64,000 bases of DNA from Caulobacter sp. (GTDB lineage: Bacteria; Pseudomonadota; Alphaproteobacteria; Caulobacterales; Caulobacteraceae): the NCBI GenBank assembly GCA_028291265.1, contig JAQGIK010000176.1:1-64000 (forward strand). The letters run 5' to 3'. Made by a program: the position numbers and the translations under genes. Every line of letters starts with the position of its first letter. Position 1 is the stretch's first letter. Positions 30,533 through 53,868 of the stretch are shown one piece after another. The notes beneath the pieces are model-generated. The model saw nothing but the letters and a program-made list of their open reading frames with translations, made no database searches and had not been told where the DNA came from.

Positions 30533-30744
30533 ATCGCTCTCCGCCCTCGGGGCGGAGTGGCTTTGGCGAGCGCTGCAAGCGAGCCAAACCGAGGCGGGAC
30601 TTCCACCGGCGGCGCTGAGGTGCGGCCGCTGCCGCTGGCGGGTCAAGGTGCAGCGCGAACCGACATCCGCCGGCGCTGCCCCGCCTCCTGGTCCGTCGCT
30701 CACGCTCCGAACCGTCCTCCGCCCCCTCGGGGGCGGAGAGCGAA
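30533..30744. repeat. Intergenic repeat element with terminal hairpins
   Basis: Two similar hairpins, CTCCGCCC-TCG-GGGCGGAG at the left and CTCCGCCCC-CTCG-GGGGCGGAG at the right, bracket about 170 bases rich in short repeats. The element fills the gap between the muramidase gene and ppa. Confidence 0.6.
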
Positions 30745-42277: not shown

Positions 42278-42302
42278 CCTTCTCCCGCTTGTCGGGAGAA
42301 GG
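42278..42302. repeat. Short palindromic repeat (half unit)
   Basis: CCTTCTCCCG and its complement flank CTTGT. The same hairpin is part of the longer units at 53221-53272 and 53816-53868. Confidence 0.6.
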
Positions 42303-53085: not shown

Positions 53086-53220
53086 CGGTCTAGCGTCAGC
53101 CCCAGATACAGACTCGGCGACCCTCCTGGGCCTCCGCTCAACTCGGGGTGACAACGCGGGGAGGGGCTATTGGCTCCCCGGATAGAGTGATCGTGAGCGA
53201 GAAGGTTTCGCCTCGGGGCG

Positions 53221-53272
53221 CCCTTCTCCCCTTGTGGGAGAAGGTGGCGCGAAGCGCCGGATGAGGGGTCGA
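53221..53272. repeat. Palindromic repeat unit, right of the DUF559 gene 3' end
   Basis: The unit has two hairpins: CCTTCTCCC with its complement around CTTGT, and GGCGC-GAA-GCGCC. It ends with the block CCGGATGAGGGGTCGA. It is the near-exact inverse of the unit at 53816 and starts 9 bases past the DUF559 gene stop. Confidence 0.8.
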
Positions 53273-53280
53273 TGATTGGA

Positions 53281-53721
53281 TCAGCCGCGCTTTGGCGGTT
53301 CGGCTGGCAGGTAGGCGGGTGGCAAGGGCGCGCCGGTGTCGATCGCGTACCGGTCTGTCGGTGCGTCAAACTCGTCTGTGGTGGGAAGCGCGACGGCTTG
53401 CAGAATTGTCGCAACCAGGTCGTCGGGTCGATTGGATACGACGCTGTTTGGAAACCTGAAGACCCGAAAGCCGTCGGACCTCAGCCAAGCGTCACCAACG
53501 GCGTCTTTGTCCGCATCGTGAAAGGGGCCGTCAGCTTCGACAACCAGGCGGTGGCGGAGGCAGACGAAGTCCGCGACGTAGCGGCCGAGCGGGACTTGAC
53601 GGCGGAACTTCAAATGTTCGAGGCGTCGATTGCGGAGAAGTTTCCAGAGGAGTTCCTCGTGGAAGGTGGGGGCGTGCCGCATACGACGGGCCAGAGCGCG
53701 TTTGAGTGTGGAGACAGGCAT
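53281..53721 (-). CDS. DUF559 endonuclease-domain protein
   Basis: This 146-residue protein of the DUF559 (VSR-like) nuclease family has RRMRHAPTFHEELLWKLLRN, FRRQVPLGRYVADFVCLRHR and LVVEADGPFHDADKDAVGDA. The D, E and D residues in this order fit a PD-(D/E)XK-type active site. RSDGFRVFRFPNSVVSNRPD follows. The start may instead be TTG at 53766. Base composition is clearly lower in GC than in flanking genes. It is bracketed by two inverted copies of one palindromic repeat. Confidence 0.8.
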   Translation of the reverse strand: MPVSTLKRALARRMRHAPTFHEELLWKLLRNRRLEHLKFRRQVPLGRYVADFVCLRHRLVVEADGPFHDADKDAVGDAWLRSDGFRVFRFPNSVVSNRPDDLVATILQAVALPTTDEFDAPTDRYAIDTGAPLPPAYLPAEPPKRG

Positions 53722-53815
53722 CTCAATGAGAAACAAATCATGAACATTGTTCGTCGTGCAAAGCAATCTTATCCGCTGTTGGATGCGTAAGCGTCGAGAG
53801 CGGCTTTGAGAGTCT

Positions 53816-53868
53816 TCGACCCCTCATCCGGCCCTTCGGGCCACCTTCTCCCACTAGGGGAGAAGGGA
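53816..53868. repeat. Palindromic repeat unit, 5' side of the DUF559 gene
   Basis: This is the inverted partner of 53221-53272. It contains TCGACCCCTCATCCGG, then the hairpin GGCCC-TTC-GGGCC, then CCTTCTCCC with its complement. The internal hairpin differs from its partner only by a compensated change on both arms. Confidence 0.8.

Follow-up and report, generated by a model that had tools for sequence, protein, structure and literature searches.

Inverted triplex-type repeats bracket DUF559 nuclease genes in Caulobacter and other Pseudomonadota: a candidate class of self-spreading element tied to BoxC/PIT/TMECO repeats

What kind of element sets a nuclease gene between two head-to-head copies of one palindromic repeat? 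The question is raised by a 64,000-nucleotide stretch of a Caulobacter sp. genome (contig JAQGIK010000176.1, positions 1 to 64,000; hereafter the window), in which a DUF559 gene stands between two such units (Table 1). A sequence-only reading of the window had likened the arrangement to REP/RAYT units and proposed that a DUF559-driven counterpart would be a distinct kind of element. A second group of repeats also bears on the question. According to the accessible portions of PMC4666352, neither an enzyme nor a function was known for the BoxC/PIT triplex repeats, although these have been on record since the 1990s; renamed TMECO (formerly BoxC/PIT), they occur in 262 proteobacterial genomes and form inverted pairs in E. 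coli (Holder et al.). The same portions state that mobility functions were never found around TMECO sites, that the triplex forms in vitro, and that in vivo footprinting failed to show it.

Table 1. Coordinates of the DUF559 block, its repeat units and a lone palindrome in the window.
Feature	Position	Strand	Remarks
Whole block (putative mobile element)	53206..53868	.	homology to three other-site copies starts 53202-53207, ends 53868
Left repeat unit with outer flank TTTCGCCTCGGGGCGC	53206..53271	+
Left unit, palindrome (Y arm, loop, R arm)	53222-53244	+
Left unit, inner hairpin	53246-53258	+
Left unit, third purine strand GGATGAGGG, gene-facing	53259-53267	+	perfect mirror
DUF559 (PF04480) Vsr-fold nuclease gene	53281..53766	-	161 aa, TTG start (uncertain)
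Right repeat unit, inverted	53821..53868	-	perfect mirror third strand
Right unit, third strand	53821-53829	-
Right unit, inner hairpin	53830-53842	-
Right unit, palindrome	53844-53866	-
Lone palindrome, second (7-base centre) unit family	42278..42302	.	centre GCTTGTC

The open reading frame between the units matches PF04480 (E 1.2e-33) and has a GC content of 60.5% as compared to 68.2% window-wide, with only 1.3% of 636 windows of the same size lying lower, while the inverted arms (53221-53291 and 53797-53867; 71 nt) are 85% complementary; the earlier description of a lower-GC gene between opposed units is thus borne out. Its spacing also holds, as the units had been placed 9 bases past the stop and within 100 bases of the start, and we measure ~9 bases from the stop to the end of one unit and ~50 bases from the TTG to the start of the other. 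Within the window, the 5-base-centre palindrome pattern matches these two unit places only (4 strand matches with at most 3 mismatches; 0.05 expected). The left unit's outer flank is common to other copies, and the block's neighbours are genes for a trehalose-phosphatase and for a topoisomerase of the gyrase-B/ParE type. By open reading frame list and Pfam, DUF559 is the single gene family between the units, where no DDE transposase was found, and an Rfam scan of the window returned nothing above gathering scores except one tRNA. We consider it likely, the mechanism proposed below included, that the ~650-bp block constitutes a minimal mobile element, in which one Vsr-fold nuclease gene lies between inverted intrastrand-triplex units. 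Elsewhere in the window, pyrimidine/purine hairpins of the CTCCGCCC type occur at 30539-30557 and 30717-30738 (~200 bp end to end), and may be a gene-less pair belonging to a third family.

Each unit is composed, from the outside towards the gene, of a pyrimidine arm (Y), a 5-base loop, a purine arm (R), an inner hairpin and a second purine stretch (R'). The second purine stretch mirrors the purine arm (GGATGAGGG against reversed GGGAGAAGG, with T facing A), and both window units combine a hairpin with such a mirror-image third strand. Among 182 deduplicated units, a perfect mirror third strand lies within 50 nt on the gene-facing side in 129 and outward in 20, with 0 after shuffling, and the third-strand score is higher inward in 145 units and outward in 25. 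Unit sequences vary widely between families and the layout is kept. For units whose third strand is good, the phylum-wide set has a median R-R' gap of 3, like that of TMECO, and the four remaining sets have medians of 16-23, with an inner hairpin often inside the gap. Judged from their sequence, the units flanking DUF559 genes have the predicted class II intrastrand-triplex layout of the BoxC/PIT/TMECO repeats, and it is this layout that ties the element to them. However, in the Caulobacter units R and R' are separated by an extra hairpin, which in the window gives a second loop of 14 nt and places them outside the strict TMECO pattern with its 3-nt second loop; the element belongs to the intrastrand-triplex repeats in the broad sense. 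The inner hairpins of the two window units, GGCGC-GAA-GCGCC and GGCCC-TTC-GGGCC, differ by a compensated pair, just as the sequence-only reading had noted in arguing that structure is selected. Of 54 units in the Caulobacter genome, 52 retain an inner stem (4 bp or longer; 19 stem/loop forms, mostly with a GAA loop), so that the pair is part of a wider covariation.

The case for an element of this kind hinges on an enrichment of the repeat beside DUF559 genes, whose absence the sequence-only reading had named as fatal to it, and the enrichment is found. An inverted-repeat score of at least 25 was obtained for 23 of 30 DUF559 loci (33 loci of named genomes with flanks of up to 10 kb, less 3 at contig ends) as compared to 10 of 903 control midpoints. 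A second test called for a perfect hairpin with a stem of at least 8 and a pyrimidine-rich 5' arm, 150-450 bp from the middle of the domain. With 4 of 29 relatives' loci dropped as too short, such hairpins occur on any side of 124 and on both sides of 84 of 134 loci; with 14 duplicate or near-duplicate loci then removed, they occur on any side of 111 and on both sides of 71 of the 120 distinct loci, a set drawn partly from best-scoring matches that may favour intact elements. At control midpoints the same counts are 265/3673 and 14/3673. Nine of the 120 loci have no hairpin and 49 lack one or both sides, and a single hairpin of opposite polarity lies near DUF559 in the 134 loci taken together. 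In greedy gene calls, 27 of 55 DUF559 genes are bracketed as compared to 20 of 461 other genes; when each side is required to have 60 bp or more free, the figures are 13/27 and 11/195. When 10 of the 11 bracketed others were scanned, one was itself a DUF559 gene, five had no Pfam match and four were ordinary genes. PIN genes of the same 41 genomes provide a further control (27 of 30 loci used, 2 dropped at contig ends; distance window 170-480 bp), with hairpins on any side in 1/27 and on both sides in 0/27, as compared to 29/32 and 17/32 in the DUF559 comparison set (7 loci from the source genome, 25 from relatives).

The source genome (4.35 Mb in 198 contigs) contains 143 copies of the palindrome pattern and 0 of a reversed control pattern. 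By eye, five of its seven DUF559 genes are bracketed by inverted units, which fall into four sequence families, and the remaining two have two hairpins on one side and a possible single unit, respectively; the automatic hairpin test scores both sides for 4/7 and any side for 6/7 of the same genes. We recognised 26 head-to-head pairs in 31 loci examined, three of them DUF559 elements of 645, 646 and 513 bp and 23 of them gene-less pairs 156-188 bp long. By eye, short pairs with the 5-base centre share palindrome and subterminal sequence with the window element and a second DUF559 element (L017), and those with the 7-base centre share them with a third (L018). Because short pairs and DUF559 elements of the same type have this subterminal sequence in common, the gene-less pairs look like non-autonomous derivatives of the elements.

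Gene and repeat also travel together across genomes. In 249 Pseudomonadota genomes, with DUF559 scored as present at E of at most 1e-10, three or more copies of one triplex-type pattern are found in 60 of 74 genomes with DUF559 and in 15 of 175 without, and within families having both kinds of genome the proportions are 35/41 and 8/82 (permutation p 5e-5). Exceptions occur in both directions: 14 of the 74 DUF559 genomes have fewer than three copies of the one pattern, and of the 63 genomes that contain eight copies or more, 9 have no DUF559 match at the same cut-off. In 59 Caulobacterales loci (6 of 65 dropped for want of a unit, 7 exact duplicates removed), similarity between nucleases correlates with similarity between units over all pairs (Spearman 0.36, p 0.0005) and more strongly within genomes (Spearman 0.67, 106 pairs, p 0.0005); to judge by these correlations, unit and nuclease types co-diverge within genomes. 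DUF559 itself is multi-copy, with up to 11 genes per genome among 41 genomes.

Relatives of the window element, with 72-76% homology, lie at three other sites, one in the same genome (L256) and two in related genomes (L255 and L254), and no flank shared among the four sites was found at E 1e-5. Conversely, the neighbours of the window site are clearly adjacent in 4 of 29 relatives' loci and the element is missing from all four; their trehalose-phosphatase/topoisomerase gap is 98-216 bp, where the window has about 803-814 bp. In a fifth relative (L190) the match at the window site is weaker and the gap is 307 bp, and the remaining loci have a different neighbour gene and are therefore uninformative on presence. 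None of the four element-free relatives has a unit pair at this site, apart from 12 bases in the gap of one of them (G249), AGGGGAGAAGGG, that are possibly a remnant. Sites with and without the block, which the sequence-only reading had asked for among strain pairs, thus exist between species rather than between strains. No target-site duplication is seen at the window site or at the E. coli pairs described below, where flanks have diverged. Compared with three paralogous elements, the window gene has a dN/dS of 0.11-0.15 at a dS of 1.3-1.5, values that indicate purifying selection. Despite a gene dS above 1, unit segments are 81-91% identical between the copies (L254, L255, L256 and the window), as if they had been homogenised.

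In E. coli, YcjD is a DUF559 protein (PF04480 E 1.4e-49), and TMECO no. 9 of the table available in PMC4666352 (1351204-1351239) falls between fabI and ycjD. Strain TC_EC10 has another well-formed unit, which overlaps ycjD at its annotated 3' end, and units were seen on the 3' side only, with none on the 5' side. A fabI-ycjD-sapF query is at least 80% covered in one place in 3333 of 5426 genomes. In an even sample of 59 chromosomes (60 less one plasmid row), the 37 with ycjD at this place have a median of 23 query-matching places (16-32) and the 22 without it a median of 6 (4-21), a lineage-confounded comparison in which the fabI/ycjD place itself is counted and 'without' allows for ycjD elsewhere. 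Pairs also vary in presence. The K-12 hrpB-mrcB pair is missing (~102 bp shorter) in three opened genomes, and a fourth has it collapsed to a single hairpin; of the alx-sstT pair, two genomes have a collapsed form and a third has different sequence in its place. In the collapse alleles L221, L218 and L220, an inverted pair has shrunk to a single hairpin of its outer arms. What the sequence-only reading took for a half copy of the window unit proves to be a lone palindrome of the other, 7-base-centre family (Table 1), probably a collapsed pair, since the E. coli collapse alleles resemble it. A clean insertion site for ycjD was sought in two strains: SMS-3-5 (L155, L160) has fabI and sapF separated by an efflux operon where K-12 has ycjD, and R8 has efflux genes beside fabI, so there is no simple empty site. 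Pair 10+11 was likewise rejected as an empty site, as its absence coincides with a different neighbour gene in two genomes.

The encoded protein has the features expected of a Vsr-type nuclease: the fold, the PF04480 domain and conserved acidic residues. Accessible passages of PMC12907096 report that Caulobacter crescentus VsrA contains a DUF559 domain and triggers an SOS response when a methyltransferase is missing, which supports a nuclease activity for DUF559, and propose for it a Vsr-like role in mismatch repair; those on VsrA do not mention repeats, and 'palindrom' has 0 occurrences in the text available. In an alignment of 33 DUF559 proteins, E36, W40, Q56, D65, F66, E76, D78, G79, D87 and G98 are invariant and H82 is nearly so. 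The predicted structure (mean pLDDT 81.6; 83-97 in blocks over residues 21-130) matches those of 3hrl, PvuRts1I, Vsr and the homing nuclease I-Bth0305I (profile match E 1.5e-5).

The enzyme of RAYT systems is an HUH tyrosine transposase. As in REPIN/RAYT systems, the nuclease gene here is flanked by inverted palindromes that are also dispersed as gene-less inverted pairs, and the repeats are multi-copy and intergenic. The window enzyme, in contrast, is a Vsr-fold DUF559 protein matching only PF04480 rather than a Y1 (HUH) transposase, neither window unit is accompanied by the GTAG/CGTC tags of RAYT-type REPs, both having the triplex layout instead, and the DUF559 block itself is present at several sites. 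The earlier likening to REP/RAYT therefore stands for the architecture and falls for the enzyme and the DNA motif. To our knowledge, every other repeat-spreading system differs in both enzyme fold and DNA motif, for which reason we judge the element class to be new. A MITE of a DDE insertion sequence would imply a DDE transposase in the full-length copy, which the block does not contain. I-Bth0305I (3r3p) has a related catalytic fold in a mobile gene, but that gene is intron-borne and has no flanking repeat units, and the Vsr-like endonucleases, including VsrA with its proposed repair role (PMC12907096, in part), share the fold family. With BoxC/PIT/TMECO, as described in the accessible text of PMC4666352, the units share the Y-R-R' layout, intergenic location, multi-copy state, inverted pairs and presence/absence variation, and one of those repeats adjoins ycjD. 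TRIP1 was considered as the same repeat and rejected; ycjD and fabI are absent from the available text of PMC10888264. A DUF559-repeat link was not found in titles and abstract starts of the open-access papers searched, and earlier print elsewhere is possible.

Our conclusion is that DUF559 nucleases belong together with triplex repeats in a single class of selfish element, which resembles REPIN/RAYT and uses an unrelated enzyme; the distinct element foreseen by the sequence-only reading is supported as an interpretation. In the mechanism we propose, each unit would fold into a Y-R-R' triplex hairpin where DNA becomes single-stranded during replication or repair, and a DUF559 nuclease of the matching type would recognise the paired units and nick or cut there. 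Host repair would then copy into another intergenic site either the block or a short gene-less pair whose ends match it, and lone palindromes would be decay products. We lean towards a still wider reading, in which DUF559 nucleases both form this self-spreading, triplex-ended class and are the missing enzymes of the BoxC/PIT/TMECO repeats in E. coli, in Pseudomonadota and probably beyond, reading a three-stranded fold of single-stranded DNA rather than duplex sequence. With a gene family that sits between such units, diverges in step with them and follows their copy number, the question of a BoxC/PIT enzyme becomes testable. If correct, this reading would bring a further nuclease fold into the set of enzymes by which bacterial repeats spread, would explain why DUF559 genes are multi-copy, and would make DUF559 a candidate for a protein that naturally reads intrastrand DNA triplexes.

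The best rival to this self-spreading class is a homing-like route, in which the nuclease gene would invade existing pairs by cutting and gene conversion and the pairs would spread otherwise. The place of I-Bth0305I among the nearest solved relatives, by profile and structure, favours homing; likewise, gene conversion would explain units that are this uniform while synonymous sites are near saturation. However, homing into existing pairs sits poorly with element-free relatives that lack a unit pair at the window site, the possible remnant aside, and with copies at unrelated sites whose homology is confined to the block, and we regard it as unlikely.

We give less credence still to the idea that DUF559 is a Vsr-like repair enzyme whose gene, like other accessory genes, lodges between unstable triplex repeats. 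The repair role proposed for VsrA in Caulobacter crescentus (PMC12907096, passages available) and the rearrangements linked to E. coli triplex repeats in the accessible part of PMC4666352 would fit such a passenger, but other small accessory genes are not bracketed in this way (the PIN and other-gene controls above), unit type follows nuclease type within genomes, and gene and repeat co-occur across genomes. Most improbable of all is a third, unlinked enzyme that moves pairs with and without the gene: the nine repeat-rich genomes with no DUF559 match speak for it, and against it stand the lack of a second gene family between the window units, the missing GTAG/CGTC tags around them and the tracking of DUF559 by copies within families. 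A regulatory or terminator role was set aside because the units stand head-to-head around the gene and are also found in gene-less pairs; earlier work cited in the available text of PMC4666352 found no promoter or terminator activity for the repeats.

Several loci depart from the window arrangement. Some gammaproteobacterial DUF559 genes are accompanied by direct instead of inverted repeats or by a tandem array, and beside the DUF559 gene of one genome (G193; L258, 1258-1976) at least nine units of one triplex-type repeat are arrayed in tandem. In four loci (L102, L129, L145 and L154) the DUF559 frame extends into the repeat, producing protein tails such as HPNPLP. Outside Pseudomonadota, a DUF559 locus of Candidatus Desantisbacteria (L044) has an inverted-repeat score of 29, as compared to a local control maximum of 16 at 34 midpoints.
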